A stretch of 38,060 nt of DNA, taken from positions 1 through 38,060 of the forward strand of contig DASTZZ010000008.1 of NCBI GenBank assembly GCA_035764005.1. The letters run 5' to 3'. A model generated the notes under the pieces. The model saw only the letters and a list, made by a program, of their open reading frames with translations. It was not told the DNA's origin and searched no databases. Each line of letters starts with the position of its first letter. Position 1 is the stretch's first letter. The translations under genes and the position numbers were made by a program. The DNA is from Terriglobales bacterium. Lineage in GTDB: Bacteria > Acidobacteriota > Terriglobia > Terriglobales > Acidobacteriaceae. Shown piece after piece: positions 7,079 to 36,160 of this stretch.

Positions 7079-8146
7079 TCAATACGCCGCGATGGGAGCA
7101 CCCGAACGTTTGCGGCTGAGGCTGTAGGAGTGTACTTCGTCTACAAGCGCGAGAACATTTTCCACCGGAGTGTCGGGAAGGATTCCATGGCCGAGATTGA
7201 AGATGTATCCGGGCCTTCCCGCTGCTGATTTCAAAACTTCTCGTGCCTGCTTGCGCAGATCGGCTTCCGGAGCAAAAAGCGCTACGGGATCGAGATTGCC
7301 TTGAACAGCGAATTTATTGCCGAGCGTCTCGAAAGCCTCATCGATAGGAATGCGCCAATCGACGCCGATCACCTCTGCGCGCGTTTGTTTTATCTCATTG
7401 AGCAGCGTTGCCGTGCCAGTTCCGAAATAGATCACTGGCACGCCGGTGGCTTTCAATTCCGCGATAAGGGTTCGTGTATGCGGGAGGACAAACCGGGAGT
7501 AATCGGCAGGCGAGAGAGAGCCAACCCAGCTATCGAAAACCTGGATGGCATCTGCTCCTGCCTGAACCTGGGCCGTAGCAAACGGAGAGAGCACGCGAAT
7601 CAGTCTTCGCATGAGTTCGTTCCAGGCTTCTGGGTCGCGGTACATCAGGCTTTTTGTATGCACATAGTTGCGTGATCCTCCGCCTTCGATCATGTAGCTG
7701 GCGAGCGTGAATGGAGCGCCGCAGAACCCAATCACTGGCAACCGCTCGGCAAAATGGCGCGCGACGATCTGGAGGGATTCGGCTACGTATCCGAGTTCGG
7801 AAGCGCGATCGGTCTTGAGCTGCGCTATGGAACCCGCATCGCGCAAAGGATGCGCGATCTTCGGGCCATCGCCTTCTACGAACTCGAAATCCAAGCCCAT
7901 GACTTCGAGGGGGAGCAGCAGATCGGCAAAGATGATGGCCGCGTCAACGCCCAATCGTTCGGCTGCGGTGATGGTCACATCCGCAGCGAGTTCTGGAGTT
8001 TTACAGATCTCAACGATCGAGTGCTGTTTTCGGACCTGCCGGTACTCGGGCATGTAGCGCCCAGCTTGGCGCATGAGCCAGATGGGGGTCACATCCACCG
8101 GCTGCCGGCGGCAAGCGCGAACAAAGCGGGAATCCGGAGCCGACAT
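7079..8146 (-). CDS. hemE: Uroporphyrinogen decarboxylase
   Basis: A 355-residue uroporphyrinogen III decarboxylase. The diagnostic N-terminal block PIWLMRQAGRYMPEYR is at residues 21-36, followed by AAIIFADLLLPLEVMG with the active-site aspartate and by GFCGAPFTLASYMIEGG. It converts uroporphyrinogen III to coproporphyrinogen III in the cytoplasm. It is the first gene of the leftward hemE-hemH-hemG group, with hemH starting two bases after its stop, so the two are almost certainly translated from one message. Length matches the family. The upstream 210 bases before the next gene carry only a small GTCCG/CGGAC hairpin (8302-8318). Confidence 0.96.
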   Translation of the reverse strand: MSAPDSRFVRACRRQPVDVTPIWLMRQAGRYMPEYRQVRKQHSIVEICKTPELAADVTITAAERLGVDAAIIFADLLLPLEVMGLDFEFVEGDGPKIAHPLRDAGSIAQLKTDRASELGYVAESLQIVARHFAERLPVIGFCGAPFTLASYMIEGGGSRNYVHTKSLMYRDPEAWNELMRRLIRVLSPFATAQVQAGADAIQVFDSWVGSLSPADYSRFVLPHTRTLIAELKATGVPVIYFGTGTATLLNEIKQTRAEVIGVDWRIPIDEAFETLGNKFAVQGNLDPVALFAPEADLRKQAREVLKSAAGRPGYIFNLGHGILPDTPVENVLALVDEVHSYSLSRKRSGAPIAAY

Positions 8147-19572: not shown

Positions 19573-21990
19573 ATGCCATGCGTGCTCAGCTACATCCCTG
19601 TCCGCTTCCGGTACCCTGCCTGCTTTCCGCTAAAGGGAGAACTCTCACGCGACGGGAAATGTACTGGCGTTCTCTCCATCATTCGCTCTCTGCAAACGCT
19701 CACGCTGTTGATGATTGTGGTGTTGCCGATGACGAGAGCGCCTGGACAGAGTCGGGAAGACGCTGTTCGGGCGGCACGGGACGGCCACACTGACGATGCG
19801 ATTCGCACATTGCAGACTATCGTGGCAAACAACAGAAGCGATACCGGTGCGGCACTCGACCTGGCCGTCATCCTGAGCTGGGCGAAGCGGCCCCGGGAAG
19901 CCACCGACGTCTTTGAACGAACTCCGGTAACGCAGATTCCCGAGTATGTGCTGCTCGCCATGACGCGTGCTTATCGCGATCAGCAGCGCTTTGGAATCGC
20001 CCAGGGACTGGCACACGAAGGACTTCGCCGCTTTCCTGAACAGAAAACATGGACGCTTCTGAATGTCCTGCTGGAAGGAGATCTCGCGTCAGCTGCCGGC
20101 GATCGCTTCGGGGCTCTTCGAGCATATGCGACTGCTCAGGAGATCGCTCCGAAAGAAGCAGGCATTTCAGCCGCGATGAGCAGCATCCTCATGCAATTGA
20201 ATGCTCCCTATGGAGCCGCATCGCTGTCTACGATTCCCGATCCAGGAATTCAAGCGGCCCAAGCCGCGGCGATGGTGCGTTGGGGAGCAAACTTCGAACC
20301 GCCGGAGCCGGCAAGGCGCTTTGAGGAAACCGATGCTGCGATTGGCAGACTGGAGGTTCTGATTCGGGACGCCGAATCCATGCACCCAGCCGATCGGGGC
20401 CTGGTGTTCCGGCTGAAACGCGATCGCGTATTGGCCTTGCGCAATCGGGAGCGCTGGAGCGATGCCGTGAAAGCCGCTGAGGAATTACGCGAAGCCGGAG
20501 ACTCCCTGCCGCCCTACGTTCGTGAAGCGGAGGCCGATTCGCTCCTGGCGCTTCGTCATCCAGAGGAAGCGCTGAGAGCTTATCGCGAAGTCCTCGCAGC
20601 CGACCCGAGCAATCGCAATGCGCGACAGGGTCTCTTCTATTCCCAAATCGAAACGGAAGATTTTCACGCAGCCTTCGCAACTACTGAAGAGCTGACGAGA
20701 GGACAGGAGCCCGGAATCCGTCTACGCCAACTGCCGCGCCCAGTTCCAAATCCGGACTGGCTGGACGCGCAGGTGTTGGGGGGCCAGGCACGCTACTACG
20801 CGAACATCGATTCCGATGCATGGAGACAATTAAAGCCACTAGCGAATGGAGCACCGGGGGCAGGCTATTTGCGGTCTGCGCTCGGCTCGGTTGCGGCGGA
20901 CAGAGGCTGGCCTCGGTGGGCCGACGAAGAAATCAACATCGCTGCGGAGATTGCCCCGGATGACCGAGGCATACAGGTGGCCGTGGCAGATTCCGACTTG
21001 CGGCGGAAGCGCTTCCGCGAGGCGCGCAGACGCGCAGAAGAACTCAATTCCCTTTTTCCCGGGGATGCCGCAGTTCAGCGATTGGTACGCGACATCGGCA
21101 TGCACGACGCCATGGAGATCCAGTTCGACACCGAAGCCCATCACGAAAGCGGCAGCGCTGCGAATCGTCCTGGGTCCGATTTCAATACCAATGTTCGCGT
21201 GTATTCCTCGCCTTTTGCGGAAAGGTGGCGCGCACTCGGCGCATTTGATTATTTCTCCGCAAAGCCTGAGGAAGGGCCGGTTCATCGAGTCCGCTACGGC
21301 GCTGGAGCAGAGGCAGAGTGGTCCGACTTCACCCTCGAAGCAATTGCCTGGAATAACGCCGGAGCCCTCTCTCGGGCGGGCGCAACTCTTGCGGGCACGT
21401 GGGAACCTACCGATCACTGGAGCTTCTCCGGCGATGGCGAACTGTATTCGAGCGAAACGCCATTGCGGGCTGTGCTCCACGGCATCACGGCCAGCGGAGG
21501 AAGCTTTCAGACGTCTTTCACAGCCAACGAATCACTTGCCACGTCGGGAAGGGTGGGGGCGTTCTCGTTTTCGGACGGAAACCAGCGTGTCGAAGGGAGT
21601 CTCACATTCTTTCGTCGAGTGCTTGACAGGCCTCATCTGAAGCTCAACATTCGTCCCGAAGTTTACGCTTCGCACAACACGCGATTCGATGCGCCCTACT
21701 TCAATCCCGCGCACGATGCCTCTGCAAACCTCAGCCTGGAGCTGAATCACCTCATCTGGCGGAGATATGAGAGAAGCTTTCGACAGAGCCTCACGATAGG
21801 CGCCGGACCATATTGGGAAGCACATTACCGCCCTGATTGGCTTGCGCAGATTCGCTACCAGCAGACCCTCGAGCTGCAGTCTGGCTTTGAGATTCACTAC
21901 CGCGTTGACCTTGGCCGGCGCGTTTACGACGGACTGCCGGTCCACGATGTAGGGATTGTCGCCGGGCTGAACAAGAGGTTGAGTCTATGA
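19573..21990 (+). CDS. pgaA: PgaA-like poly-beta-1,6-GlcNAc export porin
   Basis: An 805-residue protein, close to the 807 residues of E. coli PgaA. An N-terminal hydrophobic segment (about residues 34-58, TLTLLMIVVLPMTRAPGQ) acts as signal peptide. Residues about 60-500 are helical TPR-like repeats (EDAVRAARDGHTDDAIRTLQ; LALRHPEEALRAYREVLAAD), which in PgaA face the periplasm and guide the polymer. Residues about 520-805 are beta strands forming an outer-membrane barrel, for example VGAFSFSDGNQRVEGSLTFF. The start is uncertain: the ATG at 19573 adds a 30-residue leader before the hydrophobic segment. Its stop overlaps the pgaB start (ATGA), which ties the two together. Assignment rests on architecture plus the neighbours. 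Confidence 0.82.
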   Translation: MPCVLSYIPVRFRYPACFPLKGELSRDGKCTGVLSIIRSLQTLTLLMIVVLPMTRAPGQSREDAVRAARDGHTDDAIRTLQTIVANNRSDTGAALDLAVILSWAKRPREATDVFERTPVTQIPEYVLLAMTRAYRDQQRFGIAQGLAHEGLRRFPEQKTWTLLNVLLEGDLASAAGDRFGALRAYATAQEIAPKEAGISAAMSSILMQLNAPYGAASLSTIPDPGIQAAQAAAMVRWGANFEPPEPARRFEETDAAIGRLEVLIRDAESMHPADRGLVFRLKRDRVLALRNRERWSDAVKAAEELREAGDSLPPYVREAEADSLLALRHPEEALRAYREVLAADPSNRNARQGLFYSQIETEDFHAAFATTEELTRGQEPGIRLRQLPRPVPNPDWLDAQVLGGQARYYANIDSDAWRQLKPLANGAPGAGYLRSALGSVAADRGWPRWADEEINIAAEIAPDDRGIQVAVADSDLRRKRFREARRRAEELNSLFPGDAAVQRLVRDIGMHDAMEIQFDTEAHHESGSAANRPGSDFNTNVRVYSSPFAERWRALGAFDYFSAKPEEGPVHRVRYGAGAEAEWSDFTLEAIAWNNAGALSRAGATLAGTWEPTDHWSFSGDGELYSSETPLRAVLHGITASGGSFQTSFTANESLATSGRVGAFSFSDGNQRVEGSLTFFRRVLDRPHLKLNIRPEVYASHNTRFDAPYFNPAHDASANLSLELNHLIWRRYERSFRQSLTIGAGPYWEAHYRPDWLAQIRYQQTLELQSGFEIHYRVDLGRRVYDGLPVHDVGIVAGLNKRLSL

Positions 21991-23693
21991 AGCGGATCGC
22001 TCTACTCGCGGCCCTGCTTGCGCTGTTGTCGTCTCCTGCATTCAGCGCAGGGCGAGGCTCTCGATTTGTGTGTATCGCGCTCCACGACATCGTGGACAAG
22101 CAAGAGGACCTCGACGCCGATGCGATCACCAGCGAACGGTTGATAGCTCTCTTCGAATTCCTGCGCGGTAACGGTTGGACCGCCATCTCTCTGGACGACG
22201 TAGAAGCTGCCGTCAAAGCTAACCGACCGCTGCCGAATCGTGCCGTCCTAATCACCGTCGACGACGGCTATCGCAGTGTTTACACCAGGGTTTTCCCACT
22301 TCTGCTTGCCTACCGAATGCCGGCGGTAGCAGCCGTCGTGGGAAGTTGGATCGAGAGCGATCCATCGCACAAGCGCTACATTTCCTGGGATCAAGCTCGT
22401 GAGATGCAGCGCAGCGGACTGGTTGAGTTCGCCTCTCATAGCTATGACCTGCACCATGGAATCCTGGCAAATCCGCAGGGCAATGAACTCCCGGCCGCAG
22501 GCTTTCGCAAGTACGATCCCATTTTGGGATACGAGCAGGAAGCGGAATACCGTCTTCGCATCCGGGAAGACTTGGCCAGATCCGCAGCTGTGATGAGACG
22601 GGAGTTAGGGAAGTCACCACGAGCGCTGGTTTGGCCTTATGGGCGATACACGGTTGCTTCTGAGAATGTTGCCTTCGAAGCGGGGTTCAGGTTTGCTCTA
22701 ACTCTGGATTCCGAACCGGCTGATGCTTCCAAACCGATGGCGATTGCCCGATATCTTGTGGCCAGAGATTTCGACTTCAAGAACATTGCCAATGATCTGC
22801 GATCGCTCAACGAGCCTCCATCGGTGCAGCGTCTGGTGCGAATAGATCCATCCACACTCTGGAGTGCCGATGCCCCCGACTTCGAGAGTCGCCTGGGCCG
22901 CGCGATCGAAAGAGTCCGCACGATCGGCGCTACTTCCATCATCATCGAGGCTGCAGCATCAGGTGCGGATGGCGCGCTGAGTGGGGCATGGTTTCCCACC
23001 CCTAACCTGGCTGTGCGTGGCGACGTGTTTTCGCGCATCGCCTGGCAAATGCACACACGTGCTGGAGTCGAAGTTTTCGGACGACTCCCTGTGGGGGCCG
23101 CGCTCGCAACTTTGAAGGACCCGGAGCGCGTTCTCGCCCTGTTCCGAGATTTCGGCGAATCCGCTCCCATCGATGGCCTCTTGCTCGAGGATGTGCCTCA
23201 GCTAATCGGAATAAGGACGCGAGCCGCTTCCGAAGATGAAACGCCCTGGCAGGTGCGAAAGCGACGCGATGCTGTGGAGTACAGCACCTTGAATCCATCG
23301 GATGCACTGGCTCTTCGATGCTTCCGAGTGGTCGAGGAGGAGCGGCCTCGGCTGAGTCTGGCGGTGCTCACGGCGGATAAGACTTTGACCGGCCCCAGCT
23401 CCGTTGCGGATATGACCTTGATCGCCGCATCCAGCAAGCCCAAAGAAGCGGCTCGCCTGATCGAACGCTTGAAGAAAGTTGAAGGATCGCCTGATTTTTT
23501 TCCCCGACGCCTGGGCGTTTGGATCGAAGCTTCTAGCGCTCCCACCTCTTCCGATTTGATTGCTGTTACTCGCATCTTTCAGAGAAACGGTCTAAGCCTC
23601 ATCGGATGGAGTGACGACATGATCGGTGACAACCCTCCGGCTGCCTCGGTCGCGCGCGCCGTATCAGCTAGTTCATTTCCGGTAAGGTTCTGA
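21987..23693 (+). CDS. pgaB: PgaB-like poly-GlcNAc N-deacetylase
   Basis: A 568-residue protein with a Sec signal peptide (MKRIALLAALLALLSSPAFS). It lacks the lipobox cysteine that anchors E. coli PgaB. Residues about 28-280 are a NodB-type deacetylase: FVCIALHDIVDK, LITVDDGYRSVY with the catalytic base and metal aspartates Asp92 and Asp93, and FASHSYDLHHG with the metal histidines His151 and His156, then ALVWPYGRY. Residues about 285-568 correspond to the C-terminal glycoside-hydrolase-like barrel, though it is about 100 residues shorter than in E. coli. The enzyme removes some acetyl groups from the polymer in the periplasm, which is needed for its export. It starts within the pgaA stop and ends one base before pgaC. 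Confidence 0.9.
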   Translation: MKRIALLAALLALLSSPAFSAGRGSRFVCIALHDIVDKQEDLDADAITSERLIALFEFLRGNGWTAISLDDVEAAVKANRPLPNRAVLITVDDGYRSVYTRVFPLLLAYRMPAVAAVVGSWIESDPSHKRYISWDQAREMQRSGLVEFASHSYDLHHGILANPQGNELPAAGFRKYDPILGYEQEAEYRLRIREDLARSAAVMRRELGKSPRALVWPYGRYTVASENVAFEAGFRFALTLDSEPADASKPMAIARYLVARDFDFKNIANDLRSLNEPPSVQRLVRIDPSTLWSADAPDFESRLGRAIERVRTIGATSIIIEAAASGADGALSGAWFPTPNLAVRGDVFSRIAWQMHTRAGVEVFGRLPVGAALATLKDPERVLALFRDFGESAPIDGLLLEDVPQLIGIRTRAASEDETPWQVRKRRDAVEYSTLNPSDALALRCFRVVEEERPRLSLAVLTADKTLTGPSSVADMTLIAASSKPKEAARLIERLKKVEGSPDFFPRRLGVWIEASSAPTSSDLIAVTRIFQRNGLSLIGWSDDMIGDNPPAASVARAVSASSFPVRF

Positions 23694-24950
23694 ATGTTTT
23701 CGCCAAGTGCAGTTCACGCGATTCAATCTTTCTGTTTCGGCTATCCGTTCATCATGGCCTGGTATTGGATGGCCGGCGGCATACTGTATCGCTGGCTTCG
23801 CGAACGTCATCAGCCACCACCGGGCGAGCCTCCTCAGCTCGCTTCCTATCCGGGGGTCTCCGTTCTGGTGCCTTGCCGCAACGAAGCGGCGAATGCAGAG
23901 GAGGTCTTCACCGCGCTCGCGGCGTTGCAATATCCCGACTACGAGGTCATCGGGATCAACGATGCATCCACCGACAACACCGGCGCCATCTTGAATGATC
24001 TCGCACGACGCTATGAATGTATGCGCGTCGTACACCTGGCCAGCAATCAGGGAAAGGCAGTGGCACTCAATTGCGCGGCAATGCTCGCACGTAACCAGAT
24101 TCTCGTCTGCATCGATGGCGATGCATTACTGGATGTCCATGCGCTTACCTGGATCGTCGCAAAATTTCTCTCCGATGGTTCGATTGGCGCCATAACGGGA
24201 AATCCACGAATACGAAATAGATCCACCGTTCTGGCCAGGTTGCAAGTCGGTGAATACGGCACGATCGTTGGGCTTATCAAACGCGCACAGAGCCTGTTTG
24301 GATGGGTTTTTACCGTTTCGGGCGTAATTTGCGCCTTTCGCAAACGAGCACTGCAGGATGCGGGTTGGTGGTCCTCCAAAACGGTCACCGACGATGTCGA
24401 ATTAAGTTGGCGCATTCAGCTTGCAGGCTGGCGAATTACTTACCAGGCAAACGCCATCTGCTGGATTCTCATGCCGGAGACTTTGCGAGGTCTCTGGAAA
24501 CAACGCTTGCGATGGTCGGAAGGAGGAACACAGACCGTTCTCATGTCGGCTCGCCGGCTGCTTTCACCAAAACATTGGCGGGCTTGGCTCGTTTGGGGAA
24601 ACTACATCGTCAGCGTGCTTTGGTCCTTCACCATTGTGACCGCGCTTAGCCTCTGGCTAATGGAACGAATCGGTATCCATGTAAATACCGGCTTTCCTCA
24701 AGTCAGCCTGCTTCCGGCCTGGTGGGGAGCGGTGCTGACGAGCACGTATTTATTGCAAGCAACTATTGGGCTAGGTTTGGAGCGCAGATTCGAGAAAGGG
24801 CTTCTTCGAACCATCATGTGGCTCTCCTGGTATCCAGTCTTCTTCTGGATGCTGCAGGCGATAACTGCCGTGGCTGGACTACCAAGGGCTATCGTGCGCA
24901 TGTACCGGCCTCAAGGCACATGGGCAAGTCCCGATCGAGGTCTTGCGTGA
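23694..24950 (+). CDS. pgaC: PgaC-like poly-beta-1,6-GlcNAc synthase (GT2)
   Basis: A 418-residue membrane glycosyltransferase. One N-terminal membrane segment (about residues 12-33) precedes a GT2 domain with VSVLVPCRNEA, the UDP-binding VIGINDASTDN (Asp90), the metal-binding DGD at 141-143, the catalytic TDD at 232-234 in TVTDDVELSWRI, and the acceptor motif QRLRW at 270-274. Three or so membrane segments follow (ALSLWL, AWWGAVLTSTYLLQATIGLG, IMWLSWYPVFFWMLQAI). It polymerises UDP-GlcNAc and passes the chain across the inner membrane, together with PgaD. The ATG follows the pgaB stop directly, and the stop overlaps the pgaD start as GTGA. Biofilm polymer synthesis of this type is usually activated by cyclic di-GMP through PgaC/PgaD. 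Confidence 0.93.
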   Translation: MFSPSAVHAIQSFCFGYPFIMAWYWMAGGILYRWLRERHQPPPGEPPQLASYPGVSVLVPCRNEAANAEEVFTALAALQYPDYEVIGINDASTDNTGAILNDLARRYECMRVVHLASNQGKAVALNCAAMLARNQILVCIDGDALLDVHALTWIVAKFLSDGSIGAITGNPRIRNRSTVLARLQVGEYGTIVGLIKRAQSLFGWVFTVSGVICAFRKRALQDAGWWSSKTVTDDVELSWRIQLAGWRITYQANAICWILMPETLRGLWKQRLRWSEGGTQTVLMSARRLLSPKHWRAWLVWGNYIVSVLWSFTIVTALSLWLMERIGIHVNTGFPQVSLLPAWWGAVLTSTYLLQATIGLGLERRFEKGLLRTIMWLSWYPVFFWMLQAITAVAGLPRAIVRMYRPQGTWASPDRGLA

Positions 24951-25456
24951 ACCGCAGTGCTCCTCGGGTATCGCCACCTCCACTGATACGCGCCAAGCAA
25001 GTCCCCTTTTGGATTTTATTTCGGGATCTCGTGCTGACTGGTATCGCTTGGCTTGCGATCGCCCAATCCATGCGTGAGGGAATAAGGCTGCTATACGACT
25101 ATTTCAGTCCTCCCATGTTTGCGCTCACACGCACAAGAGCTCCGCAATGGCTCGATTTCTGGGATCCTCTGAGAGCGTTTGTCTTAATTGCAGCTTGCTT
25201 TGTCATTTGGCTAGCCTTCTGGTCATTGCATGGCGCGAGACGTTTTCGTGTAAAGCCACCAATCGCGCAGCCCAGATCCTTGTCCTGCGCCGAGCACGCC
25301 CACACCTTTGGAGTGACCGAAGATCAATTCACACGGTGGAAGAGCTATCGCATCGCGGTCATCGCGTTTTTTGCCGATCATCAAATCGCCACGGTCTCCT
25401 CGCACGATCTCGAACCAACAGTCGCAGCGGCCAGAGCGGCAAAGGCAGTCTGTTAG
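24947..25456 (+). CDS. pgaD: PgaD-like small membrane subunit
   Basis: A 169-residue protein read from GTG 24947, which overlaps the pgaC stop by four bases (GTGA). Two membrane segments are visible: ILFRDLVLTGIAWLAIAQSM (about residues 23-43) and LRAFVLIAACFVIWLAFWSL (about 71-91), with a loop between them and a polar C-terminal half. PgaD is poorly conserved and is best recognised by size, two membrane spans and position after pgaC, all of which fit. With PgaC it forms the synthase, whose activity in E. coli depends on cyclic di-GMP. The frame is open further upstream inside pgaC, but the coupled GTG is the sensible start. Confidence 0.75.
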   Translation: MNRSAPRVSPPPLIRAKQVPFWILFRDLVLTGIAWLAIAQSMREGIRLLYDYFSPPMFALTRTRAPQWLDFWDPLRAFVLIAACFVIWLAFWSLHGARRFRVKPPIAQPRSLSCAEHAHTFGVTEDQFTRWKSYRIAVIAFFADHQIATVSSHDLEPTVAAARAAKAVC

Positions 25457-25485: not shown

Positions 25486-25811
25486 CCGCGGTGCTCTTCG
25501 TTGTGGTTGCGCTTTCTATCTCAGCACTTTCCCGAGCCGGATGGCGCCTCGTTATGGTTTTGCAAATTGCCGCAACCCAGAGCCGGAATGCCGACAGTCG
25601 AGGATCTGGCTTCTAAATCCACGTCTTCCAGGCTTCTGTGCGTGGTTTCTGCGCGGAAGATGCACCGAAGTTCGTGCGATCAAATCATCTTCCAACAAAA
25701 TTTCTGCACCGCAAGTTGTGCTGCCTTCCGCGACGCTCTTCCTTATCCACCCGACTCCACAACATGGACAAGTTTTGAACAGGATAATCACAAAAATGAG
25801 GTTTATTTCTC
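25486..25811. other. Gene-free stretch between pgaD and the structured RNA
   Basis: About 325 bases with no supported gene. Short open frames exist on both strands, but none has a ribosome site or recognisable sequence. GNRA-capped hairpins, so dense further right, are absent here, which argues that the structured RNA does not extend into this stretch. Confidence 0.5.
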
Positions 25812-25839
25812 TTGCGCCTATCCGCCAAAGGAGTAAATT
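25812..25839 (+). promoter_or_regulatory. Sigma-70-like promoter in front of the structured RNA
   Basis: TTGCGC at 25812-25817 and TAAATT at 25834-25839 are separated by 16 bases. Transcription would begin at about 25846-25848, immediately before the 5' arm of the closing helix at 25855. No ribosome-binding site and ORF follow, as expected for a noncoding transcript. The match is partial, so the position relative to the RNA is the main support. Confidence 0.45.
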
Positions 25840-25845
25840 CACTTG

Positions 25846-27367
25846 CACGCGAGCGTGAGATGTCCTGAATCGCTCGAGCCTGAGTTTCAAAGTTGAGGCC
25901 TTCGCAAGAAGGTGGATGCTTGAAACATCGATTGGAACCCGCAGTTCCGTCGGAGAAGGGCAGTCGCAAGGCTGTTCTGACGCGAGACGAAGCCGAGAGT
26001 TCTGATCGAACAAGGGCCGGTTGCAGATCGACGAAAGTTGAAACGCAACTTGTTGCTGTGATCGATGATGCAGACGGGTGAGCAAACGAGCAGCGGCGAA
26101 AGCTGCTGACCGGGTGCAAGGATCGAGTGGCAAATAACCGCTCGACTCCGGAAGCCAGCGGGCTCCGCATCGGAAGCGCAGTTCAAAAGATTGCGAATTT
26201 CGATGCTAGGAACATCGGCGATGAAAGTTGCCGATATCTGAAAAGTCCGGCAGGTTGAGCATGGGTTGAGGCTTCACCGCTCCAGCCTGTGAGAACAAGC
26301 TCGGCGAAAGCTGAGTGAGTTCGCCAGCCTGCGAGCATGAGGTTCGGCGCAAGCTGGATTTCATGCGGGAGGTGCACTGGGGAAACCTGAGGCGCTCCTG
26401 AAGATTCTGCAGGCAGAAGTGATCAGCACTGTGGACGAAGGGTTTGATTGTGCGCAAGCGCAGTCGAAAGCTTCGGATCGCAGCCAGGTTGCCGGAGCCG
26501 ATGGCGTAAGCCAAAGGCAAGTTGCAGTCGTGCTGGAAACAGTGATTGCAACGAACACGGCGCTCCAGAAATGGAACGCACGAGCAGCAATCGAAAGATG
26601 GGCAGCTCGGGCAGATTGCGAAAGCGTTCTGCCGGTCACGGCGACTAAATCGCAGTACAGCGCATGGCGCAAGTCAAAGCGGGTGCGGCGGTTGTCAGTC
26701 AGACGCAGTCCTCCCGAAACGGGAAGATGGCGGTGACTGATGGTCGGCTCCGCTGGAACTGAACCCGAACTTCGGTTCGGACCAGGAATTCAGGGACGGA
26801 GCCCGGCGGGAAGTCCTCAGCATGGCGAACCATTCGGCGCGAGTCGGGTGCGGAGTTCATGCAGGCGGAAGCCCGATAAACCTGAACAGCGTGGCGCAAG
26901 TCACGACGGTAGATCGGCGAAGACCAACTGTGATGCTGCGTTGGGCGAAAGTTCAGCGTTGCAATCCAGATGGCCTGAAAGACTGGTAGTCCTCTCGCGG
27001 CGAAAGCGGTGGGATAGACGAGCCAGCCTAGAGACTACGGAGCTGAGAAGCGCAAGTTTTTCAGAATGTCTGTGGCCCTATCTCAAGCCCGAGAGGGTAA
27101 GGGATAACAAAGAGCGGCGACTTGGTGGACGGCCTGTCGAATCCAGGCAACAGGCTTCACCTTCGAGCACTCGCAGGACGGCGTCGCAAGACGAAGTCAA
27201 GCGTAAAGCTTCCGGTAACGGAAGGGGGCGCGAGGAGTGACAAATTCATCTGGTCTGCATGTGTGAGCAGCTGGTTCTGGAAACGGGATTGGCCAGCTCG
27301 ACAAAAATAGGACATCTCACCACTATCCACGGCCTGCATTCGCAAGGATGCAGGCCGTGATTGTTTT
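25846..27367 (+). ncRNA. Candidate giant structured noncoding RNA, about 1.5 kb
   Basis: The plus strand here is purine-rich, holds no credible protein gene, and folds into dense local helices by eye. Its ends pair perfectly over 12 bp: GTGAGATGTCCT 25855-25866 with AGGACATCTCAC 27309-27320. Between them I count about twenty hairpins with GNRA loops, for example loops at 25904, 25966, 26098, 26306, 26349, 26454, 26506, 26536, 26620, 26669, 26839, 26896, 26947, 27052, 27186, 27215 and 27280, plus a C(UUCG)G hairpin at 26765-26780. Larger helices enclose these: 25884-25890 with 25920-25926, 26251-26257 with 26283-26289, 26521-26528 with 26545-26552, 26695-26701 with 26734-26740, 26746-26752 with 26797-26803. 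A promoter-like pair precedes it and an intrinsic terminator (27328-27367) closes it. GNRA abundance is typical of large ornate RNAs and ribozymes. I do not recognise the family; function is unknown. Confidence 0.8.
27328..27367 (+). terminator. Strong intrinsic terminator after the structured RNA
   Basis: CACGGCCTGCATTC (27328-27341) pairs with GGATGCAGGCCGTG (27346-27359) around a GCAA loop: 14 pairs with one G-U. ATTGTTTT follows. It reads on the plus strand and begins seven bases after the 3' arm of the RNA's closing helix. Confidence 0.85.
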
Positions 27368-27373
27368 GGACGG

Positions 27374-27504
27374 TAATAGGCGATAAGCAGTCGGCAATAG
27401 GCTGATTCAATTCAGGCCCGAACCTTTAGGAGCTAAGCTGCCGAATCGTTACTCGCTCGCAGGGATTGTCGAAATCTGAGCCTATTGCGTATCGCCTATC
27501 GCCC
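27374..27504. repeat. Inverted pair of 'taggcgata' dispersed repeats
   Basis: The arm at 27374-27408 (taataggcgataagcag, caataggct) and the arm at 27478-27504 (agcctattgcgtatcgcct) are roughly inverted copies. A third copy is at 34965-34997. The 70 bases between the arms hold no gene. The pair separates the structured RNA from the DUF4142 gene. Confidence 0.55.
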
Positions 27505-35271: not shown

Positions 35272-36030
35272 TTAGCTCGATACCTTCACTAACTTCGCCG
35301 CTGCGCGATCCAATAGCCAAACAAGCCGTGCATTCGTCGGCTTCACGTATTTCACCGGATACATTTCCGGACTTCCACCATCCATGACCTCGGCCAGCGC
35401 GGCGGCCTTATCTTCGCCTGCAACCATCAGCATCACCGACGCGGCGTTGTTGATGGTTGGCCTTGTAAACGTCACTCGCCACGTATTGAACTTGTCGACC
35501 CAATTCGCGACGACGCGCTTACTGAGTTCATTCAGCGCTGCCGTTTTGGGAAACAGTGAAGCAGTGTGTCCGTCCGGACCCATGCCGAGAAGAATCAGAT
35601 CGAAGCGTGGAAACTCGCTCTCTTTTAATCGAAAAGCCTTCGCGAGCTCTGCATCGTATTCCGCCGCAGCCTTAGCAGCATCCGGATTTTCGCAATGGAT
35701 GCGATGAATGTTTTCTTTCGAGATCGGCACCTTCGACAGTAGCGTCTCATTCGCCATGCGGAAGTTGCTGTCGGGATGATCCGGCGGAACATGTCGCTCG
35801 TCACCGAAAAAGATTTGCACGCGTGACCATTCGATGAGCTTCGGATTTGCTTTGAAGCGCTCAACTAAGACTGCATGGAGCGCCTTTGGAGTTGAGCCTC
35901 CAGAGAGCGCGACCGTGAATCGCCCGTGATCTTTGATCGATTGCTGGCAGCGCACAATGAATTCTTCGGCGGCAGCTCGGGCAATTGCTTGCAAATCATC
36001 GAGAATTCGGATGCTCGGTTTCTCAGGCAT
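35272..36030 (-). CDS. pgl: 6-phosphogluconolactonase
   Basis: A 252-residue protein of the Pgl/DevB family, which hydrolyses 6-phosphoglucono-1,5-lactone to 6-phosphogluconate. Diagnostic blocks are FTVALSGGSTPKALH (residues 38-52), VQIFFGDERHVPPDHPDSNF (71-90) and LILLGMGPDGHTASLFP (145-161), the last holding the catalytic histidine. Length is normal for the family. It is the third gene of the leftward zwf-glk-pgl series, starting 66 bases after the glk stop, with an inverted 'gtgaccttcgtgttcgc' repeat filling that gap. Confidence 0.95.
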   Translation of the reverse strand: MPEKPSIRILDDLQAIARAAAEEFIVRCQQSIKDHGRFTVALSGGSTPKALHAVLVERFKANPKLIEWSRVQIFFGDERHVPPDHPDSNFRMANETLLSKVPISKENIHRIHCENPDAAKAAAEYDAELAKAFRLKESEFPRFDLILLGMGPDGHTASLFPKTAALNELSKRVVANWVDKFNTWRVTFTRPTINNAASVMLMVAGEDKAAALAEVMDGGSPEMYPVKYVKPTNARLVWLLDRAAAKLVKVSS

Positions 36031-36058: not shown

Positions 36059-36160
36059 AGCGAACACGAAGGTCACGAAGTTTACACAAAAGGTCACTAA
36101 GAATTCCTTGTGACCTCCTCCGTTTCCTCCGTGACCTTCGTGTTCGCCTTTCCCGGTTCG
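36059..36160. repeat. Inverted pair of 'gtgaccttcgtgttcgc' repeats across the glk 3' end
   Basis: The copy at 36059-36083 (agcgaacacgaaggtcac) and the copy at 36108-36160 (gtgaccttcgtgttcgcc) are in opposite orientation. The second lies inside the glucokinase coding sequence and encodes its last residues; the glk stop at 36097 lies between the two arms. Transcripts would fold there, so the pair may also act as a terminator or processing site. Confidence 0.7.

Follow-up and report, generated by a model that had tools for sequence, protein, structure and literature searches.

Results

A noncoding RNA gene between a pga-like gene row and a DUF4142 gene

The window analysed here, 38,060 nt of contig DASTZZ010000008.1 from a Terriglobales bacterium, contains on its plus strand, at 25846-27367, a noncoding RNA gene of about 1.5 kb, which is preceded by genes for a polysaccharide deacetylase and a glycosyltransferase and by a PgaD-like ORF with a weak match (26.2 bits against a cut-off of 27), and followed by a DUF4142 gene. 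The element is folded and has no protein product, and its carriers belong to a little-known group of Acidobacteria, soil bacteria. The deacetylase, the family-2 glycosyltransferase and the weakly PgaD-like ORF lie in a row at 21987-25453 that resembles a pga-type exopolysaccharide operon; in the other carriers examined, no such row was seen immediately before the RNA.

An earlier note on this DNA had described the stretch as gene-free and as purine-rich on its plus strand, and both descriptions held. Stops interrupt all six frames of all seven full-length elements identified (5 to 20 per frame in each element). When six internal ORFs were compared with four relatives, 21 of the 24 comparisons contained internal stops, 15 of the 24 length differences were not multiples of 3, and the substitutions had no excess at third codon positions; protein coding on either strand is thus ruled out by the stops in all six frames and the codon positions of the six ORFs. 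GC and AT skew both lie between +0.12 and +0.22 in 500-base windows across 25750-27499. The window's own genome carries a single copy of the element, within which internal duplication amounts to just three two-copy repeats of 15-17 nt.

Directly 3' of the RNA, at 27373-27503, stand short palindromic or tandem intergenic repeats (GGCGATA... and GGCTATC units), and repeats of the same sort, with the same units, are found just past the RNA in one homologous locus (L021 of genome G012, around 7310-7348).

The plus strand is predicted to fold extensively

The same note had called the stretch packed with hairpins, and this held as well. The minimum free energy (MFE) z score of the whole window element is -11.8 for the plus strand as compared with -4.2 for the minus strand, and the homologue in G028 gives -10.4 and -7.8, respectively, all of these whole-element values being rough (8 shuffles each); the first 1000 nt reach z = -12.9 (20 shuffles). 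In a scan of the whole 38 kb, both strands, by non-overlapping segments of 300 nt, the two lowest plus-strand z values (-6.6 and -7.3) fall inside the element, and the remaining three segments inside it score -0.9, -2.2 and -2.3. Outside, the lowest plus-strand value is -4.5, from the segment at 27301, which contains the element's end, and the lowest minus-strand value is -6.0, from the segment at 36001. A perfect 18-nt inverted repeat (GCGAACACGAAGGTCACG / CGTGACCTTCGTGTTCGC) at 36060-36147, with low fold z on both strands (-3.8 and -6.0), is perhaps a REP-like intergenic element.

Counting every hairpin whose stem has 4 bp or more and whose loop is a GNRA tetraloop, we found 22 on the plus strand of the window element as against 0 on its minus strand; the seven full elements have 22, 22, 22, 23, 17, 19 and 19 on their plus strands and 0 each on their minus strands, whereas shuffled sequences (300 per sequence) had means of 1.3-1.8 and never more than 7 (mean 1.8 and maximum 6 for the window element). 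A search for 11-nt tetraloop receptor words found no pair in any of nine sequences.

Homologues support the structure by covariation

The proposal of an undescribed giant structured RNA of about 1.5 kb was strengthened by strong helix covariation together with the lack of a coding signature, and the helices covary both in the home genus (that of the window's genome) and in an independent pair of genera. In alignment A6, made of the five full home-genus rows, 121 of 511 pairs are changed on both sides and 93.1% of 2526 cells are paired; shuffles gave 53.2 two-sided pairs (sd 5.2), with 0 of 500 reaching 121, and partners slid by 1-3 columns gave 11-30. With two pieces from G003 added to the five full rows, RNAalifold called 436 pairs, 107 of them two-sided, with 2481 of 2579 cells paired, while 12 re-folded column shuffles of that alignment yielded 228-286 pairs, of which 11-32 were two-sided. 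The home-genus fold energy is -319 kcal/mol, compared with -108 to -130 in the re-folded shuffles. Since the structures were derived from the same alignments as the pair counts, they are favoured against the slid controls, a bias from which the re-folded shuffles are free. On its minus strand A6 folds at -395, as against -601 on the plus strand.

As an independent replicate, the elements of G028 and G012, taken alone, have 74 of 362 pairs changed on both sides (20 shuffles: mean 41.3, maximum 51) and fold at -427 kcal/mol versus -232 in shuffles. The minus strand of this pair also has 69 of 280 pairs two-sided, at -266 kcal/mol, because these are the complements of covarying helices. The alignments strongly support a conserved RNA structure.

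Domain organisation and paired ends

We list 57 predicted helices in window coordinates (59 in another tally). Downstream of a short 5' segment, a 5' domain (25884-26083, +) forms three GNRA-capped arms from helices H4-H9, all six of which have two-sided pair changes. A central domain (26091-26918, +) holds the 35 listed helices H10-H44 and, as gaps in alignment A1 indicate, is largely different or shorter in the two non-home genera. The 3' domain (26921-27299, +) is the body best conserved across genera, as seen in an 8-row alignment and in covariance model R1; carried through the terminator, that alignment has 129 pairs, 40 of them with two-sided changes. Within the 3' domain the motif AAAGAGC is invariant and unpaired in the 8-row fold, and overlaps the candidate helix P2 described below.

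The 5' segment itself (ACGCGAGCGTGNGATGTCCTGAATCGCTCGAGCCTG, 25847-25882, +), defined by a 34-nt pattern and the upstream alignment, is nearly invariant. The pattern, which includes one N, has 0 mismatches in 8 of 8 matches from three genera, and variation in the 36-nt start comes down to one A/C site and one T inserted in G002. Nucleotides 25855-25866 of this segment (+) pair with 27309-27320 (+) over 12 bp to form helix P1, which would close the RNA and agrees with the paired ends seen in the earlier note; 11 of the 12 pairs are invariant in the home genus.

A second long-range helix, the candidate P2, would join CGCTC (25871-25875, +) to GAGCG (27112-27116, +), one of its five pairs being non-standard in two of the five home-genus sequences. 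RNAalifold picked P2 in the 5-row home-genus alignment and, at the corresponding segments, in the G028/G012 pair; it did not pick it in a 7-row fold, in which 25872-25874 pairs with 26081-26083. These nucleotides are one rival partner, and CGAGCG at 25850-25855, complementary to CGCTC by eye, is the other. Because both helices are nearly invariant, P1 and P2 pairing rests on complementarity, not covariation. A palindrome of the 5' segment, GCTCGAGC, overlaps CGCTC and is present in all eight sequences that include its position. These complementarities would allow a nascent 5' hairpin to give way to pairing over long range.

Conserved transcription signals flank the element

A sigma-70-like promoter, TTGCGC-N16-TAAATT, lies at 25812-25839 (+), with TTGCGC at 25812-25817 and TAAATT at 25834-25839 separated by a 16-bp spacer. 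The promoter-like pair had been noticed before in this single sequence; in the nine aligned upstream regions CTTG, GAGTANATT and the spacing are kept in every one, the general form being TTG(NNN)-16-TANATT, 7 nt ahead of ACGCGAGCG. Judging by the -10 sequence, the RNA probably starts near 25846/25847. At the other end, an intrinsic terminator (27328-27367, +), found in the 3' alignment and the helix lists, consists of a 14-bp hairpin at 27328-27359 and a T-rich tail, ATTGTTTT, up to 27367. This terminator, too, had been proposed earlier, and all eight rows of the 3' alignment retain its hairpin, in shorter form in two of them (G028 and G012); the G005 row ends ahead of the T run.

Further upstream, at 25743-25762 (+), a conserved DnaA-box-like element consists of TTATCCACC followed by TCCACAA, the latter unchanged in nine of nine upstream regions. 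It is a possible activator site, for a putative binding protein. DnaA-box-like words number 23 in the nine upstream regions of about 135 nt (45.6% GC), or 18.9 per kb on both strands, compared with 0.87 per kb across the window; relative to shuffles the excess has P<0.05 in six of the nine single sequences, which are not independent, and is not significant in three (G003, G005 and G012). The dnaA gene lies on contigs other than the RNA's in the six carriers searched, though it may be close to the RNA on the chromosome. We offer a link to the replication origin through these boxes only as a lead.

Carriers of the RNA and their relationships

Full-length elements number seven, the window's own plus six homologues, with lengths of 1322-1535 nt, and represent three genera within a single family of Acidobacteriota. 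Three further genomes contain pieces, bringing to ten the genomes with all or part of the RNA; the named records are metagenome-assembled. The full elements can be aligned over 1.2-1.5 kb at 49-90% identity, pairwise values being 66-90% among home-genus elements, 63% for G028 with G012, and 49-54% between the two groups. A blastn search of 61 genomes, including the window's own, found the element in eight: six of the home genus, plus G012 and G028, which belong to other genera of the family. Home-genus matches are 74-80% identical to the window, the element being split over two contigs in G003 and into three pieces on one contig in G005. In G012 and G028 the blastn matches cover the 5' 40 nt and a 3' stretch, and whole elements of 1361 and 1322 nt, respectively, were read at their loci.

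Covariance model R1, built on 162 positions of the 3' domain (27071-27232), matches 9 of 300 family genomes, of which 8 were judged real, and 5 of 399 genomes of the class, of which 4 were judged real. It is found in all six home-genus genomes, in one of five genomes of the G028 genus and in the one genome of the G012 genus. A match in G183 (24.3 bits), with a low score and surroundings that look protein-coding by eye, was taken as chance and left out of the carrier counts. A weak second match in G002 (C465, 25.5 bits) was likewise not counted. Two more genomes of the G028 genus have pieces cut by contig ends (G188, the last 164 nt; G152, the first part). The 34-nt 5' pattern, with up to 3 mismatches allowed, occurs in 8 of 398 family genomes and 3 of 79 genera, missing G002 (inserted T) and G188 (5' part not assembled); in a list of 396 genomes of the phylum it occurs in one, the window's own, with no other carrier seen in that list. 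An exact shorter pattern hit 10 stretches in the GTDB species collection, six of them this RNA in Acidobacteriota records; the other four (L032, L033, L035 and L039) match the short pattern alone and were dropped as chance. The apparent absence of the element from G118 and G171 (genus g24) comes from assemblies that are 83-84% complete, and the filters used in the model searches over 40 genomes can lose weak matches, so that distant relatives may exist.

Assemblies break inside the RNA in three of the ten carriers, namely G003 (L018, L017), G152 (L046) and G188 (L044), perhaps through strain variation.

In a single-gene DnaA tree of 31 of 32 loci (G007, with no usable ORF, was left out), the carriers fall in two places, implying 2 changes; 1% of 200 bootstrap trees have 1. 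G012 and G028 group with support of 98/97, and the home genus (100/99) stands beside four non-carriers at 92/85. A single origin of the RNA may be compatible with the starred branches of this tree, and the carrier pattern may reflect old inheritance with losses, or transfer. The RNA is presumably chromosomal and old.

Neighbouring genes change between carriers

We named neighbours by Pfam for the window, G001 and G028, and by blastp likeness for the others. A response-regulator-like gene and an S4-domain gene flank the RNA in G001 and G004, and G003 has the same two neighbours, one on each of its two contigs. DUF4142 follows the RNA in G005, and in G002 it comes second, behind an ORF judged oxidoreductase-like by eye. 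Upstream of the RNA in G028 and G012 are a response regulator and a DUF6526 gene, joined in G012 by a further ORF, and downstream of it is dnaB. The carriers examined have no protein neighbour in common, and in most of them about 140-570 nt separate the RNA end from the next long ORF. Such variation in the downstream genes favours a role in trans.

Searches for a mobile setting were negative within their scope: the 38 kb window contains no tRNA, no Pfam name among those of the 13 ORFs scanned is phage-like, blastn against phage and plasmid collections returned 0 records, and four motif patterns had 0 matches in viral contigs.

No Rfam family matches

The Rfam check suggested in the earlier note gave no family at gathering score, out of 4227, anywhere in the 38 kb window, the covariance models of introns and known ribozymes included. 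With E values up to 5 admitted, four loci holding four elements gave three matches, all far below gathering score and regarded as chance: tfoR (25.6 bits, gathering 70) over the last 95 nt of the G012 element including its terminator, the only one inside an element, HDV-F-prausnitzii outside the element in L003, and ZNRD1-AS1_2. Searches of open PubMed Central papers brought up no account of such an RNA, in a corpus whose coverage excludes most subscription journals.

Discussion

A stand-alone RNA that would act in trans

We regard it as almost certain, from comparative sequence evidence, that the element is noncoding, has some 57-59 predicted helices, a conserved promoter and terminator and complementary ends (P1), is single-copy in the window's genome and is present in all home-genus genomes examined. 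With covarying helices in its homologues, no coding and its own transcription signals, it is by all appearances a large structured noncoding RNA. Our preferred reading, to which we assign a probability of roughly 60%, is a stand-alone gene for a giant structured noncoding RNA that would act in trans as an architectural particle. RNA polymerase would start near 25847 and stop at the terminator, producing a discrete transcript of about 1.5 kb, whose 5' segment would fold on itself first and then pair with the 3' end (P1), and perhaps with the 3' domain (P2), so as to lock the body; some 20 GNRA loops could dock in tertiary contacts, giving a single rigid architecture; and the folded RNA, neither messenger nor leader of a neighbouring gene, would act in trans, either as a protein scaffold, like OLE, or as a homo-oligomer, like GOLLD and ROOL. 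For this mechanism as a whole (discrete transcript, joined ends, docked loops, particle in trans) we see the odds as about even. More tentatively, and with the balance tilted against it, the element could be a new RNA class, larger than any other structured noncoding RNA of bacteria except rRNAs and introns, chromosomal in an Acidobacteriota lineage and acting as its own RNA machine (a particle, or a large ribozyme that matches 16S rRNA in size). Its 5' segment would then give up a local hairpin, once the molecule is complete, to pair over long range with the 3' end and the 3' domain.

An RNA-only cage or ring like GOLLD or ROOL, its subunits joined by loop contacts of which GCTCGAGC would be one, is an unlikely form for it to take, even if the many GNRA loops, the presence of the palindrome in all eight sequences and the lack of a common protein neighbour would all suit it. 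The palindrome is also explained by local or P2 pairing, and the element has no phage, plasmid or viral match. GOLLD and ROOL are described, in passages of PMC12286853, as phage or prophage RNAs often near tRNAs, whereas neither setting was found here, the tRNA scan covering the window.

Conservation beyond the needs of pairing could instead point to a large ribozyme, whose active site would combine the 5' segment, hardly variable as it is, with conserved parts of the 3' domain: the 34-nt start is free of mismatches in 8 of 8 matches at a whole-element identity of 49-54% between the home genus and the other two, and AAAGAGC is invariant and unpaired in the 8-row fold, though overlapping the P2 candidate. 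This we consider improbable, given that no known catalytic core was recognised and no ribozyme or intron family reached gathering score, the weak HDV-like match lying outside the element.

Two further readings are very improbable. A very long cis-acting leader or attenuator would suit the same-strand gene that follows the RNA (DUF4142 in the window; dnaB in both G028 and G012), but those downstream genes differ between carriers, the RNA is ended by a conserved intrinsic terminator, and about 140-570 nt follow before the next long ORF in most carriers; we favour an architectural RNA in trans over a cis leader because the neighbours change, a terminator is present and the capped arms are many. 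A remnant of a mobile element or intron, now without its protein, would account for the patchy distribution (3 of 79 genera in the family sample), but not for the single copy in the window's genome, the lack of an intron family at gathering score, the strong selection on structure, the RNA's own promoter and terminator, or its presence in all six home-genus genomes examined.

Comparison with known large RNAs

To our knowledge, apart from rRNA and introns, elaborate conserved folds are known for very few natural RNAs longer than 600 nt. Group II introns are large multi-domain RNAs with GNRA loops, a likeness to the element, which differs in having its own promoter and terminator and no intron family at gathering score in the window. 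HEARO, which has an Rfam profile, is like it a structured noncoding RNA of bacteria.

Our comparison with published RNAs draws on PMC12286853, PMC2864571, PMC11109978 and PMC5643018, and the printed sizes agree with the earlier note's statement that GOLLD, ROOL, OLE and HEARO are all shorter. GOLLD RNAs, many of them longer than 800 nt, are encoded by phages and prophages and often lie near tRNAs, ROOL env-120, a phage or prophage RNA, measures 659 nt, and the one HEARO studied has 343 nt and works with the protein IsrB (PMC12286853). GOLLD, ROOL and OLE have Rfam profiles and gave unexpected homo-oligomeric structures (PMC12286853). OLE, about 600-610 nt, occurs in Gram-positive extremophiles and anaerobes and has known protein partners (PMC5643018).

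Set against these, HEARO is IsrB-linked, whereas no such protein is found among the 13 Pfam-scanned ORFs. None of these ORFs is one that we take to be an OLE partner, and downstream genes differ between carriers. OLE, a large structured RNA acting in trans within an RNP, resembles the element as we picture it and differs in its size of about 600 nt, its known partners and its phylum, as well as in Rfam, where the element has no match at gathering score. The element shares with ROOL its large size, many loops and lack of a known protein partner, whereas ROOL is phage-linked, shorter at 659 nt for env-120, and has an Rfam family that does not reach gathering score here. Like GOLLD, the element is a giant, ornate, hairpin-rich bacterial RNA whose 3' part is conserved while the remainder varies more; the differences are a length of about 1.5 kb, nearly twice that of GOLLD, no viral match and no Rfam match at gathering score. 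At that length, with strong covariation and a defined start and end, the RNA is a direct target for cryo-EM and genetics, and it indicates that large ornate RNAs occur outside phages and Gram-positive bacteria too. By ancestry the element is in no family of the RNA library searched; if large ornate RNAs are regarded as one kind, it is a new family within that kind.
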